Positions 5,229-60,884 of a DNA stretch of 64,000 nt are shown one piece after another. Under the pieces are notes generated by a model. It made no database searches. It was not told the DNA's origin and saw nothing but the letters and a program-made list of their open reading frames with translations. Source of the DNA: Xiphophorus maculatus (Eukaryota; Chordata; Actinopteri; Cyprinodontiformes; Poeciliidae). Both the position numbers and the translations under genes were made by a program. The stretch spans positions 18,681,479 to 18,745,478 of the forward strand of contig NC_036450.1 of the NCBI RefSeq assembly GCF_002775205.1, given 5' to 3'. How positions within the stretch are numbered: the first letter of the stretch is position 1; each line of letters opens with the position of its first letter.

Positions 5229-7801
5229 ATGGTTCTCATCTGGACCCAGTTCGGAGTGAAGCAAAAGAATGGAAATGTCAAGTGCAAAGTGCGAGTCATG
5301 CACAGGGGTGACAGCTCCGGATCATCATCGTCAGCTGTAAGTACAGTTTTTTTGTTGGCTTTTTTTTTTTTTTTTTACTAAGGTTTTTCTATGTATTTTA
5401 AAGTTACACGGCATTCCTTGCCCGCGTTTGTACTCCGCCGGCATCTGTAGGAGATGCCGTCATTTTATTCATTCACATGCTAGAAACGCGGATTCCCTAT
5501 CAGCCAATCGTTGCGGAGATTCTCAGTTGTTGGGGGGGGAAAGTCTTTTCACGATCCCTTCACATGGTTTACACCCCCCTCTCTCACGTTGGGTTGAGAT
5601 CAGCCTATAAAATGTATGCATCTGCTCAGCAGCACAGATAAGGGTGTTTCCCCTTAGGGAATTAAAGCTGAAGGTGATTTCTATCTTTGCGGATAGAAAT
5701 CAATCATTTCTATCTTTGTAGCTCATACACTGCTTTTCAGTTTTCATCAGCGATTCTGTTTGGAATTGCACTTTGTGGATAGATATATAATCGACAACTA
5801 GTGTTAAATTAAATGTCACAACATATGTGTCGGCATATAGAAAGTATGACAAAGTGATCTAAAAATCTAAATTGTTGTGTTCCTTCAGGAGAGCACCAAG
5901 TCTGAGCAGGACACGCCCTGCCTCTCCATCAAACCCACAGGCAAGGACTTCTACAAGGTCCTGGGCGTCTTGCCTGAGTCCAATGAAGATGAGATCAAGA
6001 AGGCCTACAGGAAGATGGCCCTCAAGTTCCACCCAGACAAGAACAGTGACCCTGACGCGGAGGAGAAGTTCAAAGAGATCGCAGAAGCTTATGAGATCCT
6101 GACCGACCCCCAGAAGAGAAGCATTTACGACCAGTTTGGAGAAGAAGGTGAGCAGATGTGACTTCATGTATAAACTTTGAATTGCTTCAATCAAAGCTCT
6201 CATGCACAACATTTGCATAGCGACAACTCAAATCTGTCAGGAAATATGTTTTTCGTTTTTTTTTAACAATTTGTCTATTCTCTTTTTAAGGTCTTAAAAA
6301 TGGAATTTCAGCAGGCCAAGGCAACATTTTCCGCCAAAATTTCCAAAACGACCCCCACGCCACCTTCTCCTCCTTCTTCCACAACTCTGACCACTTCGAC
6401 ATCTTCTTCGGCAGCGACCCCGATGCCGACGACGACCTTTTCAACCCCTTCCGGCGATCCACCTTCACTCACCTGGGTGGCTTCGCCGGTTACGAGGCCG
6501 GCCTGCGGAAGGGCGCACGGCACCTGTCTGGCGAGGCCGTGGTGCACGACCTGCCGGTGACCTTGGACGAGGTGATGCATGGCTGCACAAAGCAAATGAA
6601 GATCACACGCAGCCGCCTCAACCCCGACGGCCGAAGCCTGCGAACCGAGGAGAAGGTGCTGAACGTTGTGGTGAAGAAAGGCTGGAAGGCTGGGACCAGG
6701 ATCACCTTCCCCAGGGAGGGGGATGAGACCCTCAACAGCCCTCCTGCAGACATCACCTTCATTCTCAGGGATCAAGACCACCCAGAGTACAAGAGAGATG
6801 GGTCCAACATTGTCTACACAGCCCAGATCACCCTTAAAGAGGTGAGTTTCTTGTTAGTTAGTGTCCACACAATGAACCACATTCTAAAACACTCACCAAT
6901 TCACTCTTTGTTCTAGAAATTCACAAGACAAACCATACATATTCTTAATTCAGTCTTTTAACAGAAAGCTTTGTACCGCTATGGGCAAAAGCCTACCACT
7001 TACAGTCGCCTGACAGACCCCCACAAACCAAATGGCAGCAGTCTGCCAACACCTCCATTACCTCAGCAGCCCCTGCAGAGGGCGAGAGAGAGAGAGAAAA
7101 AAAGAGGCTAAATATAGCCTTGCCTGGTGACTGCACCCACGAATCGCACTTCAGCCTCCCTCTTAGCCACTAGACTCACTGCAGCCTCAACAGGCCAGGC
7201 AGAGAAAGACAGAAAGAGACAGTCCTACTGGTTCGCTCTGTCTCAGCCTCTCAGTTCCTCCAGCCCACGCACAGATTAGCAGAGCAGCAGTCACAGAGAC
7301 TGACATTTCAAATAGCTCCTCCGTCCTCGTTTGGCTCCCTATCAGTCACAGAAACACTTGACTCCCACACACAGGAGCGAAATAGAACGCCGGTTATAAC
7401 ATCTGTACCACTGTTGCATAACTCAGAAAATCTTTTCACAAGAACGCACACATAACATTTAGCAGTTACACAACTGTTCATGCTCCACTTTCCTTCATTG
7501 ATTTTGAAGCCAATATTGACAACAGGCCTCCATGACTAACTTTTCCTCCCTCTTGATTTGTCTCCAGGCTCTCTGTGGATGCACAGTCAATGTCCCAACA
7601 CTGGACAACCGCATGATGCCTTTACCGTGCAGCGACATCATCAAGCCAGGAGAAGTCCGGAGGTTGAGGGGCGAGGGTCTCCCACTGCCCAAGAGCCCGT
7701 CCCAGCGGGGCGACTTGGTGGTGGAGTTCCAGGTGCTCTTCCCCGACAGGATCCCGCCACAGTCCCGCGAGATCATCAAGCACAGCCTGGGACAGTGCTA
7801 G
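5229..7801 (+). CDS. dnajb5: DnaJ homologue subfamily B (DNAJB5-like HSP40)
   Basis: A type II HSP40 co-chaperone that delivers clients to HSP70 and stimulates its ATPase, in the cytosol and nucleus. Coding exons are 5229-5336, 5889-6147, 6291-6841 and 7568-7801; the splice joins keep phase and give 383 aa. Residues 1-36 form a basic/serine tail (starts [12 protein letters not shown]). The J domain spans about 55-120, with the HPD triad at 84-86, followed by a G/F-rich linker with [10 protein letters not shown]. Two C-terminal beta domains follow, with the family markers [11 protein letters not shown] and [11 protein letters not shown]. Among paralogues it best fits DNAJB5 (MKIT-x-RLNPDGR, CSDIIKPG), but DNAJB4 and DNAJB1 are close, so the symbol is less certain than the family. 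The start at exon 1 rather than the usual MGKDYYK start is chosen because the frame is open, joins in phase and has a promoter behind it. An upstream heat-shock element suggests stress induction. Confidence 0.85.
7108..7117. promoter_or_regulatory. MEF2-type site in dnajb5 intron 3
   Basis: CTAAATATAG is a full match to the MEF2 consensus CTA(A/T)4TAG. It lies in the last intron, after a GA-rich run. It is a motif match only; function is not shown. Confidence 0.3.
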
Positions 7802-10512: not shown

Positions 10513-10566
10513 ATGCGCTTGGAAATGAAATGTCGCAAACACGTCAGACCACCCCACACAATCTGA
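10513..10566 (+). promoter_or_regulatory. Overlapping upstream ORF on hwa
   Basis: An ATG 17 bases before the hwa start is in another frame and opens a 17-codon frame that ends inside the hwa coding region. Both ATGs have a G at -3, so some ribosomes would be expected to start here. Whether the transcript includes this ATG depends on the unknown 5' end. Confidence 0.4.
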
Positions 10567-12841
10567 CTGAAGGCTACCCTGTGGCAAACCTGACCTTAGT
10601 TGTCCTCCTGCTCATCCCCTTTGTGGTCATTCTCCTTCTGCTGAACTGTCTCTTCCTGGGCTACAAGGTCCTGGTTCTGTCAAAGAAGAACAGCAGACCG
10701 AGGCGGGAGGACACCGAGGAGATGCTCCTGCGATCCGCCCTGCCGAGACTCAGAATATCCGACGTGGCCTTTTCCTCTCTGCGGGACGGGAGGACAGCCT
10801 ACATGTCCCTGTCGGAGCCCGTCCTGTCCCACCCGGTCACTTCTTCAAGGGCGTCGTCCAGAGACGGAGCCGGGTCGACTAACAGGATCCGGCTGCTGAG
10901 GCCCGACGGTGCGACTGGCTCCGGGTCTCTGAGGGCGCCGAGCACCATCCGGGCCGCGTCCTCCGCGCAGGGCTTCACTCCGAGGCTCCACATGCCTTCC
11001 AGCTCACCATCTTACAGTGACAGTAAGCCAGGCTGGTGTCGGAGTGCTCCGGTTTTACTGCAGTCCAGCGATTCAGAGGCTAACTCCAGAGTACACCTGG
11101 TTCCACCAAACTCTCCAATGGTGAGCGAGTTCTGTGTATCAGAGGATGACCGTTGCGTAAATGCTAGTTTAGATCCGTTCAGTAAGTGTTAAGGACTTTG
11201 TATGTTTCTCATCAAGGTTTTTACGGTGCTCCAGGTATTGTTACAGACAGAGATGACTTTTACACAACTTATTTCAACCCAAATTAATTCATAATTCACT
11301 TAGATTTTAGAGCAGGGCCTGTCCATCATTTGACATTGTTTGTTGTTGTTTTTTTCCCCCATTAGCAGATTATCATTTTTTACAAAAGGTATTCACTCCT
11401 CACACATGAACTTTAATGAGATCCCAATTTTATTTGTCCATCATCTGTGTTACTCTCACCAAACAGTTTCAATGTGTGTGGGATAATTTCCATCAAAGAT
11501 TGGGAGGATGTCCTCCATTTTCATTATTTCACCCAGTTGGACCAGTACTATTAGCAGGGAAACAGAGCTTCAGCATGATGCTACCACTACCATACTTTAT
11601 GGCTTATTCAATGTTGTTAAGCCCGAGTACCTCACATTGACTTGTACCTATTTTGGAGCTCTTACATTTATTCTTGGGCACTACCCTTTGTTAAGCAAAT
11701 GTCAAATTGGCTTCCATGTCAACCGGAGGATTAGTGTTGCTGGATATTTCTGTTTATGATAAGCTTGAGTCTTCGTGGTTCTTGAACATGCTGACCAATT
11801 TTTTCAAACCCAATCTGAAGGCGACTATGTCAGAAACTGGGACAAATTTGGGAAAATTAAACATTAGGCTACTATTCCTCAACCTTATTGAAAAATTGTG
11901 AATTGTGCTTAAAGAACTTGATCTGTGCATGTAAAATAAACCAATCTATATTTAACCCCTAACTAGAGAAATGGTCAAATATCCATTCCAGAAGTATTTT
12001 GATTATTGCAACAGCATATAGTTTACTTGTAACTTGTTCAGTAAACAGTGCATATTTAAATCAGTTTGTGAAGAGTATATGTATGTCAATTGATACCGTC
12101 AGTCTAAATGATGTTACTGTGGATTCAGGTTTCTTTAAGCATCAGTGGGGGTCAGCACAAGATACTGGATCTCTACCAGCTGAGGACAAATCAAAGGGAC
12201 TGCAACAAGAAGTGGATTTCTGCAGCTTACTGCTGGGGGTTAGGTTTTTAACTCATCTGTCAGCTTAAACATTTATTTTTCCTTGATTCACAGGAGGAAG
12301 CGGAGCATGTGGATCACATTCGTCAGAGCAGTACTTACGAGAAGCTAACGGAAGTGAATGCAGCCGCTCCTGTGCATCCGTACGACAAGCTGTTCATGGA
12401 GTGTGAGCACATGAACTCAACCTCAGAGACATCCAGTCAGAACTCATCTGCTGTGGGTCCTGGGCTGGACAGTGACTTCGGAGCAAGTGCAGGTACAAAA
12501 ATCTCCTCCACCCAGACTGTATTAAATGCAATTGTCAGATCAAAGTTCACGTGACATTAATTTTCCGACTTCTATAACTTGGATAATGTGGATGAGACAA
12601 AATGACATTTTTGTTACTAGCAGTTATTTGCGTCGTTTATAACAAAGCAGAGGTGTGGGTATCGTGTCTTCCAGGTGTCTCCCTTCGCATTTTGTCTGCA
12701 GATAGCGACGGCCTGTCCAACGGACTGCTGTCTTCAGCGCTGGAGTGGGATTATTACGATCCCTGTTATGTCAGACAGAATAATATACCCAAACATAATC
12801 ACCACAGGCCTGTGATCCACACAAAACAGTACTGGGTATAG
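10530..12841 (+). CDS. hwa: Huluwa, maternal dorsal-axis membrane protein
   Basis: Huluwa is a single-pass plasma-membrane protein that drives Axin degradation and stabilises beta-catenin to set the dorsal organiser in fish and frogs. Exons 10530-11120, 12294-12492 and 12675-12841 join in phase (phase 0, then phase 1) to give 318 aa; the zebrafish protein is close to 294 aa. Visible parts are a short outside end with two N-glycosylation sequons (N11, N20), a hydrophobic span at about 21-45, a basic stop-transfer (KKNSRPRR), a long serine-rich tail, the PPNSP motif at 192-196 (reported to bind Axin and resembling the LRP6 PPPSP repeat), SLRILSADSDGL near 266-277, and a tyrosine-rich C-terminus with DYYDPCYVRQNN and HTKQYWV at the end. 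The first in-frame ATG, with G at -3, was chosen as start. Intron 1 contains a Tc1 relic. Read-through past the first donor would end after 220 aa. Identity rests on memory of the motif and architecture. Confidence 0.78.
11381..11880 (-). mobile_element. Tc1 relic in hwa intron 1
   Basis: It begins with ACAAAAGGTATTCACTCCT, a decayed Tc1 end. In the middle is CAGCATGATGCTACCACTACCAT, split from the antisense of the transposase region, and it closes near 'gggacaaatttgggaaaatt', a decayed opposite end. It is an internally shortened copy lying antisense within the first hwa intron. Confidence 0.65.
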
Positions 12842-13204: not shown

Positions 13205-13210
13205 AATAAA
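13205..13210 (+). promoter_or_regulatory. hwa polyadenylation signal
   Basis: AATAAA about 365 bases after the hwa stop codon, giving a probable 3' UTR of 12842 to about 13230. Confidence 0.6.
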
Positions 13211-13429
13211 GAGTCATATTTTAAGAAATTGAAATAATAGTCTTACATTTTATTAAAAACTGAATCCATGTTGCTTGAACTCCAGCGTAAGGTTTCCACA
13301 GTCTGTAATGATTTAGGGAGTCGTGTCATCTACTGGTGTTGATCCATTGTGTTTTCTTAAGCCCACAGTTAATGTAGACGTCCACCAGGTAACTTTTAGA
13401 GCATTTTATTCTTATTTTTACTGACAGGT

Positions 13430-19397: not shown

Positions 19398-19511
19398 ACT
19401 TCAAAATAAACGACGGCATTAATTGTCCTTTTTTTCTTTCTTACATCTTTACTGGATATACAAATTTAATTTACCTAATCTTATATGCATAGAAACCCGT
19501 TTCCGCCACTC

Positions 19512-19514
<3 letters not shown>

Positions 19515-19595
<81 letters not shown>
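19515..19595. repeat. (TA)n microsatellite
   Basis: About 40 uninterrupted TA units, likely variable in length between individuals. Confidence 0.95.
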
Positions 19596-19596
<1 letters not shown>

Positions 19597-19599
19597 CTA

Positions 19600-20970
19600 C
19601 ATAAATAAAATATTTCTTGTCAGAAATACAGTATATGCGTACGTTAAAGTTTATTAATCTCATATTATTTTTTTATATTGTACCTCTCTTACAAGAGCAA
19701 CACAACAGACTTTATTATGAAAACCGATTTAAAATGTCAGTACAGTAATCCCATTGATAAAACAAAAACCCAGTTTAAAGTATTTGTCTATAGCCATATC
19801 ATGTCAAACTAAAACCATAAAGCCACTACATACATAATTAAATTAGCAGACTTAAATTTGGAATAAAAAATTTTTTTATTGTTAAAATAGCCAAATACTC
19901 AATTAGAAAGCTCACATAAAAACATTGCCCTCAGGGCTACAGAATGGAGCTGTAATAATAAAATTATGCTTCACAAAGGTATTTTTTTGTGTGTGTGTGA
20001 GTCTGGGTGCAATCCAAAGACCTTTTTCTAAAAATCCAAGCTATCTGGATGCCTTGTACAATTAAAATAATCCTGGTAAATGTGTGGGGTTTATTGCACA
20101 ATAGCCTAATAGTTTGATCAAAAATATCTTAGAAACAGTGCAGACCAGATATAACAAAAATGTCCATTTCCAATAGCATTTTTTTATCATCCTTTACCAA
20201 ACAAAATGAGTTCATTAAATAAATTTTTAATACATACAGGTGTTTAATACATACTTGCAGGGTTACATGTAGCAAAAGAAAACTAAGAATAATGAGATCT
20301 TTTGTCAATTTGTTCTACTTTTCATGACAGACTTGTGCCAGTGTCATTAGTTTTAAAAATGAAACAATATCAAACTCAAAATAACACATATCAGCATCCA
20401 TAGGTAGCCAGCATTAACATAAGGCTATATGTCAAGGGTAGGCAGAAGAACACTGTTTTTTCAGCAATTGCAAATAAAATTATTGAACTGTTTTTAAACA
20501 CGTTCCACAAAGCAAGTTAAGGTGAATTCTTCAGACAAATTTTGCTGTCATTCACCAAGCTCTAGCCATTTACCTAATTTACTAGTTCTTAAATCCAGCC
20601 CTACTTTCATCTGTCATTGCAAGGTCCTTGTCCATTAAAAAATAAATAGAAATACAAATCTTATAGAATATCAGTGCTGTTGACTTTATGAAATTGTTGT
20701 GTAGCTCGCAAATCTGTAACATCAGTAAATGAAGTGTTAAATAGATCTGGTGCATCTGCTAGAACTATACTCCTGTTGTGTACCGATCGATCACAGTTCT
20801 ATGGAAGTGGCTATTTCTTGGGCATTGTGCATTTTTTGAAAGAGTAATTTTGAAATGTTCTCGGAACGTATTTGTTAACCAACAAATCAACCGACCCAAG
20901 GAGTCTACCTGTGACAATCAAGTTGGACATGGCCGGTAATTTCTTTCTTAATGCTTAATTTCGTCATCAT
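19600..20970. other. Intergenic, atp5f1a to kinase
   Basis: AT-rich sequence without a recognisable gene or transposon. The last part may hold the kinase promoter and a noncoding 5' exon (an acceptor-like ttaaattcag ends at 21000), but no clear core promoter can be picked out. Confidence 0.5.
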
Positions 20971-21041
20971 ATTTTGAGTTGTATGTATTTTTAAATTCAG
21001 CATCTGTTTCACTTTATAAGCTATGTGAGACATCATCCACA

Positions 21042-23922
21042 ATGGGGAGCTTTTCTTCTACATCTACACCTGATATACGCTTTGATAGCAATCATCCATT
21101 TCCCCAGCGATTCGAAATCATTAAATTTCTGGGAGAAGGCGGCTCTGCAGTCGTGCTCAAATGCTTTGACACCTTCACACACCAAGATGTTGCCGTGAAG
21201 TTTGCCAAAGGAAAATACAAATTGAAGCACGAGGTAGGACGCCAACCATATGTGATACCGTGAAAAGCTGAGAATATCAGACTCAAGTGACCAAATGTGA
21301 GGTTATTTTATGTTATTTGCAGGCAGAGATGATGAAATATCTCATGAAACACAAGTTGGACCAGCAGAATGTTATAAAGTTTCACCACAGCTTCAGCTCA
21401 AACTCCTGTCTGGTGTTTGAAATGTGTGACATCAATCTAAAGGACTACATTAAACAAAGACACCCACTGAAAATGCAAGAGATTAGAACAGTTATCCAGC
21501 AGGTATGGCAATAATTAAAAAAAGGAATAAATCTGGAAATTTTATGATTTAATGTAGAACACAATTCCATTTGAGTCTCACTTTCTATGTTGTATTATGA
21601 TCATGTTTTCAGTTGGCCACAGCTTTAGAGGGACTGAAGAAAGTTAAAGTCATCCACAGTGACATCAAAACAAACAACATTATGGTGGTGAATCAAAAGA
21701 TAAAACCGTTGCAGGTCAAGCTGATTGACTTTGGCTTGGCTCTCCACAGCAACCAAACTGGTCAACCCATCAATCAATGTCTTTTTTACAAGTAAGAATT
21801 GTAAAAAGAAATGTTTGAGTTGTTTCTAGGCTGCCAATCAAGAAAAACAGGCTTTACACTGATGCAATATTATAAATGTGTTACAGACACTCCTGAATAA
21901 TGACAACTTTCCTTGTTTTAGAGCTCCTGAACTCATTCTCGGGCTCCCATACTCTACAGCTTTGGACATCTGGTCACTGGGGTGTGTAATGGGAAAGATG
22001 CTTTTAAACTGTGTACTTTTCCCGGGGACTAGTGATTATGAAAATGTGAGTAATTTACTGTATTCATACAGTTTTATACTTTGAAACCACTATTGCTGCT
22101 TTTTTATATAAAAGAAATTAAATTAGGTTGTGTGTTAAACTTGTTTTTTTTTTTTGTTTAAATATGGGCATTAATACCGTGATGCTGTTAAAGCAAACTC
22201 AAGGTTATCATAATTCAGAAATCTCATACAGCCTATTCTTAAGTTTGCTACAACTAAAGTACCCAATTTGAAATGACAGAAGTTCTTTCACGCTAATATA
22301 TAAATCCAAAAATGTATATTTGGTTCTCTTTTTTCAGCTGTGCTACTTCACTGATGTTCTGGGACCAGCACCAGACTATCTTGTTGACGCCTGCAACAAA
22401 TCAAAAGGGTTTTTTAAAAAGTCAAACTCTAACCAGTGGATACTGAAGGTACAATGAACAATGTCCTCCATGTATTAAGAATCATGACTTTCAATATAAG
22501 GCAAATGGGTGTCTCTTCTTATTTCTGAGAAATTTGGTTTAAAGTACACAAAAATAGTACAAAAGAAAGACTGCCTAAATCCCTTATATGGAAGCAGTTA
22601 AATATTTTTGAATGTTTCGATGGATGGAAAGTAATATTTTGACATTATTATCTTTGTACTCTAAATTGCATTTTAAAGACAAATCCTTTTACAGTCACCT
22701 GTGGAATACTGGGGAGAGGAACACCATAAACACAAAAGGTGCTTCAACTTTCGTTTTTTGCATCAAGCTAAAATGGTAAGCCATTAATATAATACAGCAT
22801 CAACTGGCACTGAGGTTTGTCTTCATGATCTCTCAGATGATATTGTGCTGTTTTGTAAATAAGAGTCACCTGAAGTATGAAAAACTGGCTGCAACAGAGG
22901 AGAGGAAGGAATGCATAGCGCTGATTAAGGCAATGCTTCAGTGGGATGCAAAGGAGAGGATTACTCCCAAAGGCATCCTGAGACATTCCTTTATTGTCAG
23001 GAAAAGCGACAGTCCTTGCAGCCCTCTCCCTGAATCTAACACTGCATTCAAGCAGGAACCTTGCGCCAGCCAGGTCACGGCTCATCCTAAAATCGCAAGT
23101 CAAAATATGAAAGATGTCAAAGTAAAGAGAAGAACATATGACATGTAAGTACCACTGTAGACTTGTTAATATTATGTACACTCACTGGATCGCAACTCAA
23201 TGCTTTAGGCATCCAGACACAGTGAAGATGACTTGCTGAGTCCATTTAAATGGAGAAGAATCAAGATTTAGGTGACTATGAATAGTGGCATAGTTGTTGC
23301 TGACAGACAGTCTGATCTAAGGATTTCAGAAACTGTTCATTGATTTTCACACAAAAATAGCTCATCGGTTGTACATTTAAAAAAAAAAGAAGAAGAAGAA
23401 AATAGGTACACCTTGATATTTAGTGCTGTTGCTTACAATATCCATCCATTTATTAGCATTTTCTGATGGCTGCTTCCATTCAAGGAATTAATACTCCATG
23501 TCACAAAACTTAAATCCTTGAACATGACCGTGAATTTCAATAATTTTTTTTGTATTAGTTTTTTTTGTTGCTATTTTTGCTCTTGCTATTAATTCTGCGT
23601 GTGTTTATTCTACAGTTCACAGCAGTCAAAAGATTTAGACAAGAAACTGCCTCCACGGCCAAGCATAAACCAGCCATCTTGTGAACAGTTGAGCAAACCT
23701 TCACCTGTAGAAAACAGACTTCTCTCACAGAAGATAGATGGTAAGAGACCAGCAGCGAGCACAACTTTGGAGTCTACCATCAAACAGGAAGAGCCGGACC
23801 CTTCTTCTATTGTTGAATCTACCATAACTAGGGAAACCTGCAGCCAGCTCACTCATCCTCAGAGCAAATCAAAACAGAAGAATTTTTTTGAGAACATATG
23901 TCTTTGTTGGAGACATGGCTAA
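21042..23922 (+). CDS. Fish-type HIPK-like protein kinase
   Basis: A Ser/Thr kinase of the DYRK/HIPK group; its substrates are unknown. Eight exons, 21042-21233, 21323-21502, 21613-21791, 21922-22045, 22338-22448, 22695-22775, 22837-23144 and 23616-23922, join in phase to give 493 aa. Motifs are the glycine loop LGEGGSAVV (30-38), VAVK with the ATP-site lysine K53, catalytic loop HSDIKTNN (139-146), DFG (163-165), and [12 protein letters not shown] in place of the usual RAPE (A185-P186-E187), then DIWSLGCV. All catalytic residues are present, so it is probably active. The DYRK-type activation-loop tyrosine-x-tyrosine is not present in its usual form. The tail after about residue 340 is low-complexity, with two psi-K-x-E SUMO consensus sites (FKQE, K361; IKQE, K448) and a C-terminal CLCWRHG. 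Single-domain HIPK-like genes are numerous in fish; the closest relative cannot be named from sequence alone. AATAAA at 24147 likely ends the mRNA. Confidence 0.85.
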
Positions 23923-58207: not shown

Positions 58208-60884
58208 TCAGTACTTTGGGTAGAGCACCCTGGCAATCTGTCCGTCCGCTCTGTTCGTATCCAGCCACTTCCCACAAAGGAAAATTGTGGTGACGCCATT
58301 GGCTGTGTTGGTGATTTCCACCCTGTCGAGCAACCAGCCAGGGCAGAGTCCTGAGTTGTCGTGCTCCACTCGAACTCTCTGCAGATCGCCCATGTCCAGC
58401 ATTTCCACCACAAAGCGATCAGTCTGCCCCCGTTCAAAGAGGTTACGTAGCCTCTGTCGCAGTTGCCGACTGCCTGAATCTCCGTTGGAGCCATACATTG
58501 TGATGAAAACATTGGCATCTGTTCCCGCTCCCTTCTCGTCGCCTGTGATTATGATGATCTCATACTTGACGGGCACCAGGCTTCGAGCTTTGCTTGCGAA
58601 GCTCTCAACGGTCTTTGTGCACTCAAAGGTCAGGAATTCATCCCTCTTCGGAGACAGAGGGATAAGGGCATTGCAGCGGAAGATGTACCTAGGCAGGGAA
58701 AGAAGAAAACGGGAAGTTTTCAGCTTGCATACAAACAAACAAACCTATGAGTGCTAGTAGAAATCAAATGACTCCTGAAGGAGTTGTAACAGTTCTCTTA
58801 CTTGTTTCCAAGCTCCTTTTCAGTCACAACTACCTCCTCGACATGCCAGTAAGCCTCTCCTTTCACTTTCTTCCCATCTTTGGGCGTGTGGCCCAGGCAG
58901 ATGGCAGCAATATCACCCACATTCTTTGAGGAAAACTCAAATCTGTCAACATTTCCCCTGAAAAGAAAAGAAAATGTAAGAAATTGATTGAAATCTCATA
59001 ATTTATGTTAATGATAAAGTTTTGACATTGTACTATAATGTTATTGTAGTAAACAGTTCAAGTCATTTTTGCAGGTAGGATTAACCTAAGTGCAAGCAGC
59101 ATAACGGAAACAGCTCTACCAGGAAAAATGTCCAAACTAGATGGGGAAATACTTACCTCAAAAACCTCTTCTTCTTTGAAGAGTTCTCCATTACAAGTTC
59201 TTTTGATCTGCACTTCTTCCCCTCCAGTACTATCCAGGCATTCTCCTTGGTTTCGTCTGTGTCTCCAGTTGTGACGCAAATTTCATACTCTTTCAGAGAC
59301 AAAGTCCAGAACAGAGTCACGGTACAATCTTTCCGACATCTTCTAGCAGAAACTTCATTATTTAGCTTTAAGAAACAACACCCTTCACCCTTATTTAATC
59401 CTTGGATAAAAATGTGTAACACAATCAGACTCTGGATCAGAGTTCAGCTTACCCTTCAGGTTTTCTATAGGATTTAGGTTTTGGCACTGAGGGAATTATT
59501 GTATTATTTCTATGTTGATGCACATTATGTTTTCAAACATTACCCTACTGATAGACTTGATGATGACCCATTTTCAGATCAGAGCATCGCATTTTGTAAT
59601 AAAAATTATCCTGGTACTTCAAGTACTTGACAGGGGGAAGTGCTTTTCTATGTTCCTTATGTTTCTATGTTAATCACATTAGACCCATTTACAGTGGCTG
59701 TTGCTATAAGCTCAAACTTAGTTGGGCAAAGCACACAGTTGACGTGTTTATCGAACTGTTTAAATTTGTGATGGCAGAACAGAAAAGTAAACTTTTTTAG
59801 ATGTGTATCCTAAGCAAGAGATGTAAAAAGTAAGTTTTTACTCATCTTTACCAGGGGTGTCATAAAGCATAAAGGGTGTATAATAGCTTACTTGTTTTCT
59901 CGTTGAGGTCTAAATAATCATTGTTTGCACAGGCCAGCTCTCTCATTATCTGTCCATCATCGTCTTTCTTGGAAAGCCAGCGGTCACAAGGAAAACGGAA
60001 GGTTTTGTCCAGGAACTCATCCTTCACATCAATGTGCTCCAAGTGCCAACCTGGAGCAATACCTGCAAAATTAGTGAAAAAGAATAAGGGAGTGACAGCA
60101 GTTCGTCTGATTAACAGAAAATTAATTGACCTGTTCTGAGGTAAACATTGAACTAAGTATTTTTTTTCTTAAATTAGAATAAGGGTTCTTTTCTTTTCTC
60201 CCCATTTCCTTCAATTCTTTTTTAAAAAAACACACCAAATATACAATTTTACTGATTTATAAACCTTTGTTGATCTGGGATTTTTATCCTAGAAAGGTAC
60301 TTTTGGACAATAGTTTCACTCTTTTAAAGGAGGAACTAAAAAGAAATAATACAATTAAATAAACTGTGGAATTACATATGATATACACAATAATTTTAAT
60401 AATGCATGACATTTAATAAATTATGTACATTTTAGCTATTTATTAAATTGTGGTCCTTCACTCCACTAAATTGTAACCTGTTCATAAAGTAAGGCCTCAT
60501 AAAATACAGCTTTTAGTGCTTCACAAAAAAGAAACATGAATTAGAAACAACAGAAATCACTCAAACGAAACATGATCAAAGTCAGAACAATCAGATGGTC
60601 ACTAAATACCAGGCAGTCTGATTTCAGCTAAATCACTGTCATCATTCCTAATTTAATCTTCCCGTTATGCAAAGGGACTATTTATCCGAGCAGCTGACCT
60701 GTGTTGTCGTGCCAAACTCTGACTTTGGAGAGGTCTCCCAGGCTGAGGATATCGGGGAAGCGAAACATGTCCACCTGCTTACGCTCAAACTTGTTGGACT
60801 TCGTGGACTCCTTCAGCGCCAGCCTCCCAGTGTCACCATTCTCTCCGAAAACGATGACCCACACGTTGGCGTCGGTGCCCGCCC
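58208..60884 (-). CDS. loxhd1: Lipoxygenase homology domain protein 1, C-terminal exons
   Basis: LOXHD1 is a large hair-cell stereocilia protein built almost only of PLAT domains and needed for hearing. The last five coding exons, 5' to 3', are 60699-60884, 59892-60062, 59157-59289, 58802-58957 and 58208-58688; splice phases agree throughout. PLAT hallmarks recur: [39 protein letters not shown], then [10 protein letters not shown], and finally [39 protein letters not shown], closing with ARVLYPKY and a stop. So the window holds most of one PLAT, one complete but divergent PLAT (its GAGTDAN loop is replaced by DETKENAW) and the terminal PLAT. The preceding exons lie past 64000. Fish can carry two loxhd1 genes; which one this is cannot be told. 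Confidence 0.92.

Follow-up and report, generated by a model that had tools for sequence, protein, structure and literature searches.

A huluwa (hwa) orthologue, intact, coding and apparently single-copy, very probably lies on the plus strand of the window, the whole 64,000-nucleotide stretch of Xiphophorus maculatus DNA analysed here, to judge from its sequence. In zebrafish and Xenopus, Hwa acts as a maternal dorsal determinant; it aids the tankyrase-mediated loss of Axin and needs Ser168 within a PPNSP motif (PMC11576741). The identity, proposed earlier in a sequence-only reading of this DNA, is supported by pieces of zebrafish Huluwa that recur in the predicted protein in their expected order, as well as by its architecture and a three-exon structure, both of which match; the gene structure is open, and no second locus was found in the genome search described below. 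The coding exons give an intact protein of 318 or 309 residues, and a polyadenylation signal follows:

10530..11120, plus strand: coding exon 1, with the outside end, the membrane span, most of the serine-rich tail and PPNSP
12294..12492, plus strand: coding exon 2; a version cut short at 12402 gets a near-equal score
12675..12841, plus strand: coding exon 3 of the 318-residue model, ending QYWV with stop codon TAG; an alternative acceptor moves its start to 12702 (309 residues)
13205..13210, plus strand: AATAAA polyadenylation signal, 364 bases past the stop; ATTAAA comes next at 13252

The N-terminal part of the protein, including a strong membrane span and a serine-rich tail, is encoded by a plus-strand open frame whose first ATG is at 10530. 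Splice combinations were scanned within set ranges and above set scores using a rough splice matrix, and 68 open models end at the stop codon at 12839-12841. The spliced 318-residue product previously proposed for 10530-12841 exists as one of these models, with exon 1 ending at 11120, exon 2 covering 12294-12492 and exon 3 starting at 12675; it ranks fourth of the 68, with a score of 14.6. The models above it on this rough matrix encode 279 residues (15.8, exon 2 ending at 12402), 309 residues (15.6, acceptor before 12702) and 288 residues (14.8). All of the top four join position 11120 to position 12294 at the first splice, and have exon 1, the RQSST-coding stretch of exon 2 and the last part of exon 3 in common. 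The score gaps among them are too small for choosing one. Because three rival models outscore that of 318 residues, the matrix leaves doubt over the nine residues GVSLRILSA and over the latter half of exon 2.

The two exon 2 donors (12402 and 12492) and the two exon 3 acceptors (12675 and 12702) have near-equal rough-matrix scores, and the resulting proteins range from 279 to 318 residues. The GC content at codon position 3 is 0.658 in the 309-residue model versus 0.373 in intron 1. A short upstream frame at 10513-10566, seen by eye, has ATGs at 10513 and 10525 and overlaps the huluwa start codon out of frame. The miR-430 seed match GCACTT is absent from the 459 bases 3' of the stop.

The predicted product has a short outside end, one strong membrane span, a serine-rich tail, PPNSP and a QYWV end, and hydropathy, composition and translation bear out every one of these elements as they had been described from the letters. 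That the C-terminus ending QYWV is conserved among Huluwa proteins is a statement of the sequence-only reading. Hydropathy windows of 19 residues exceed 1.6 only where they start at residues 14-34, with a peak of 3.17 at residue 23.

10587..10673, plus strand: membrane span, about residues 20-48, from hydropathy and a helix at residues 16-54 in single-sequence AlphaFold2

AlphaFold2 was run on exon 1 alone (196 residues) as a single sequence, with a mean pLDDT of 55. It returned one confident helix at residues 16-54, with block means of 93-98 over residues 21-50, a low-confidence helix at residues 62-69 and a remainder without structure. Serine accounts for 17.5% of the residues from 51 onward, and PPNSP occupies residues 192-196. 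The tankyrase-binding pattern R..[PGAC][DE]G has no match in the 318-residue protein; looser tankyrase-type patterns occur, for example RIRLLRPDG at residues 119-127. Pfam gave no family for exon 1 (E <= 1) or for the 309-residue model (E <= 0.01), and a PDB search returned only two matches to ArsR regulators at E 1.2, neither a meaningful relative. With the 196 residues of exon 1 as query, 91 pattern matches in bacterial and archaeal contigs and two in viral contigs were obtained, none of them confirmed; missing relatives of these kinds are expected for a vertebrate gene.

The zebrafish comparison set was taken from PMC11576741 and comprises the MS peptide VNTVPPNSPVLR(V) with Ser168, the RRSST motif and seven hwa primers. 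The identity test thus used zebrafish pieces of 4 to 13 residues and not full-length Hwa. The primers were read sense-wise in three frames, giving 21 frames, four of which contain stops; two of the 17 scored matched well. The places found along the gene are the following, with shuffles counted when they reach the score of the match:

10525..10537, plus strand: ATGAAATGTCGCA, including the start codon (10530); 13 bases identical to the reverse complement of the zebrafish tsu01sm common reverse primer
10800..10820, plus strand: YMSLSEP against zebrafish VSVSEP (primer, frame picked post hoc); 20 of 2000 shuffles; two six-frame sites
11103..11117, plus strand: PPNSP motif, its Ser195 corresponding to zebrafish Ser168; for the peptide VNTVPPNSPVLRV, 0 of 2000 shuffles and one six-frame site in the window
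12321..12335, plus strand: RQSST, residues 207-211, against zebrafish RRSST; 33 of 2000 shuffles; four six-frame sites
12755..12772, plus strand: YDPCYV against zebrafish YDPSYV (qPCR primer); 0 of 2000 shuffles; one six-frame site of that score

The five pieces MSQL, VSVSEP, VNTVPPNSPVLRV, RRSST and YDPSYV are collinear along the protein and reach a joint ordered score of 121, three of them coming from primers with the frame picked post hoc and the two printed as protein not so picked. Shuffled sequences score 55.5 +/- 6.2 with a maximum of 78, and 0 of 2000 reach 121. The first piece, MSQL, is what remains of CDEMSQL when it is cut back to the start codon; the uncut CDEMSQL has its best-scoring position at another site in the protein (256 of 2000 shuffles). 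At the DNA level, the qPCR reverse primer fits best in the window at 12755, where 15 of its 20 bases are identical, and is the one primer of five with its best window place inside the huluwa gene. The 13 bases of ATGAAATGTCGCA, from a primer in PMC11576741, match once in the window and in none of 100 shuffles; when the full 23 bases are placed ungapped, 10525-10537 falls outside the window's five best places.

The remaining 15 primer frames are without a convincing match, the best being reached by 133 of 2000 shuffles. Some of the unmatched primers are presumably drawn from outside coding sequence. Both tsu01sm forward primers would have to sit 5' of the start codon, because they give products of 382 and 479 bp with the start-codon reverse primer, and the S168 reverse primer could fall within an intron. 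For the zebrafish qPCR forward primer, expected to be coding, no frame gives a convincing match (393 to 1690 of 2000 shuffles). The YDPSYV, PPNSP-peptide and ordered-piece matches argue for huluwa, and this unmatched primer counts against it. Short motifs recur and serine-rich disordered tails are common, which together with the missing primer match would suit an unrelated single-pass protein that carries PPNSP by chance. That explanation is extremely improbable in the face of five pieces that agree in order and a joint score that none of the 2000 shuffles attains. Several features of the family (a single-pass protein with a disordered inside domain, a PPN(S/T)P motif, an RRSST-like motif downstream and three exons as in zebrafish) are found here.

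Just past the switch serine, the huluwa gene in the window differs from that of zebrafish. PPNSP is followed in zebrafish by V-L-R, which is not kept here; the corresponding residues are M-E-E, read across the exon boundary (11103-11120 / 12294-12299). The Arg that Hwa has at position +4 after the serine is described as a preference of Cdk16 (PMC11576741). The +4 residue in the window is Glu when exon 1 is spliced at 11120 and Ser if exon 1 is read through; neither is Arg, a zebrafish feature that need not define the family. It is possible, as a tentative reading of these residues, that the Huluwa switch has been rewired, with the PPNSP serine kept and Glu at +4, so that other kinases (Cdk2, GSK3) would set it. 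Since the residues after the motif span the boundary between exons 1 and 2, a shift of splice site could have changed the choice of kinase with the motif kept. The changed residue leads to a simple prediction on which kinase acts.

Copy number was addressed with a six-frame search of the fish's own genome (704 Mb in 101 contigs), with the 309-residue protein as query and five candidates scored. No second huluwa locus appeared in the 704-Mb genome at E <= 0.001, and the gene looks single-copy because only its three exons and one weak further match, on contig C7, were found. This further match has E 0.26 in the genome search and 7e-08 against a 3.4-kb subject with composition adjustment and the low-complexity filter off. 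It was considered as a degenerate huluwa duplicate and rejected, having two stops, no PPNSP and a likeness that is proline- and serine-rich.

Teleosts underwent an extra genome duplication, and a diverged duplicate (ohnologue) of the huluwa family with another role, instead of the one-to-one orthologue, could also account for a sequence that departs from zebrafish just past the switch serine. A genome with a single locus at E <= 0.001, where the only other match is interrupted by stops and lacks the motif, makes such a duplicate very unlikely. The one-to-one orthologue is the reading carried forward.

By analogy with zebrafish, maternal expression, phosphorylation and action on tankyrase and Axin can be inferred for this orthologue. 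Eggs would be supplied with the hwa mRNA, and its product would be a plasma-membrane protein whose short outside end would be dispensable. Phosphorylation of the cytoplasmic tail would fall on Ser195 in PPNSP, and the tail would bind tankyrase and promote the loss of Axin. Axin loss would stabilise beta-catenin and start the dorsal organizer without a Wnt ligand.

A fish may also carry an intact hwa orthologue that has lost the role of maternal dorsal determinant, a view that is compatible with orthology and denies only the role. The title of an annual-killifish study reportedly speaks of an "absence of Huluwa prepatterning", which suggests such a fish, and the gene in the window lacks the +4 Arg. 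Loss of the role is nonetheless unlikely for a gene that keeps an unbroken reading frame together with its start, splice sites, PPNSP and poly-A signal. Halibut, for its part, keeps hwa as a maternal gene, with high levels described in unfertilised eggs (PMC12722812).

The genes on either side of huluwa were compared with the earlier placement between dnajb5 and atp5f1a. The upstream neighbour is read from the same strand and carries DnaJ and DnaJ_C domains (Pfam), with its last exon at about 7520-7800. We take this last exon to be most like DNAJB5, and the best PDB matches for two earlier exons are to DNAJB1. A DnaJ-B gene thus stands as the upstream neighbour by its two domains; the choice of dnajb5 over another DNAJB gene does not hold to the same degree, with DNAJB1 as the best PDB match. 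The downstream assignment to atp5f1a is confirmed by a match to ATP synthase alpha (E 6.5e-27) in a convergent gene on the minus strand, with further exons recognised by eye. Beyond it are kinase-like exons at 20955-23145, with two Pkinase matches that are both under the Pfam cut-off, and past these a gene with RNF111_N (59 bits, cut-off 27). PLAT exons at 58211-60168 on the minus strand (one at 78.5 bits and one at 22.9, just below the cut-off of 23) are probably loxhd1. A TA-repeat run at about 19500-19600, appearing as YIYI in translations, lies between atp5f1a and the kinase-like exons. A RING pattern, sought for an ARK2C neighbour, gave no listed match in the window's open frames.

The downstream neighbours presumably fit ATP5F1A, ARK2N and LOXHD1 of human 18q21, and to this extent the description of an 18q21-like block is reasonable. 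As a guide to where the gene was lost in mammals the block serves only in part, with the upstream flank located elsewhere in human. The human DNAJB5 gene maps to 9p and ATP5F1A to 18q, and the huluwa flanks therefore bound no single human interval. A further intact orthologue with its gene neighbours is a data point for tracing the loss in birds and mammals, and leaves what is known of the family unchanged.

Huluwa is described as present in most chordates, birds and mammals excepted (PMC11576741); its absence from mammals, as the sequence-only reading had it, agrees with this account, which adds birds. An hwa gene in a fish is expected and ordinary, because the gene is in the literature for chordates other than birds and mammals and has been named in halibut. 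The halibut gene is likewise an hwa orthologue in a teleost other than zebrafish, set beside the present one by description and not by sequence (PMC12722812). Orthologues in halibut were identified through manual NCBI BLAST and annotation searches (PMC12722812), and it is not certain that gene finders would label such a gene a hypothetical protein, as had been supposed.

Hwa is described with an outside domain that is not essential, a single membrane span and an inside domain that is large and disordered (PMC11576741), and a figure legend gives the zebrafish exons as E1-E3 (PMC12758452). The gene in the window is alike in its three exons, short outside end, single span and disordered tail (the fold being of exon 1 only), the exon match being one of count and not of boundary positions aligned residue by residue. 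It is also alike in PPNSP, in RQSST for RRSST, in YDPCYV for YDPSYV and in an MSQ start, a likeness that rests on short pieces with most of the tail outside the comparison. The two proteins are unlike in the position of the switch serine, which is 195 here and 168 in zebrafish, and in the spacing from this serine to the RRSST-like motif, which is 12 residues here and 18 in zebrafish by the numbers in PMC11576741. The PPP(S/T)P motifs of Lrp5/6 offer a second comparison, as membrane-tethered, proline-rich serine motifs that also raise beta-catenin signalling (PMC11576741). Unlike Lrp5/6, Hwa has a single PPNSP and no large outside domain, and is described as acting independently of Wnt ligand (PMC11576741).
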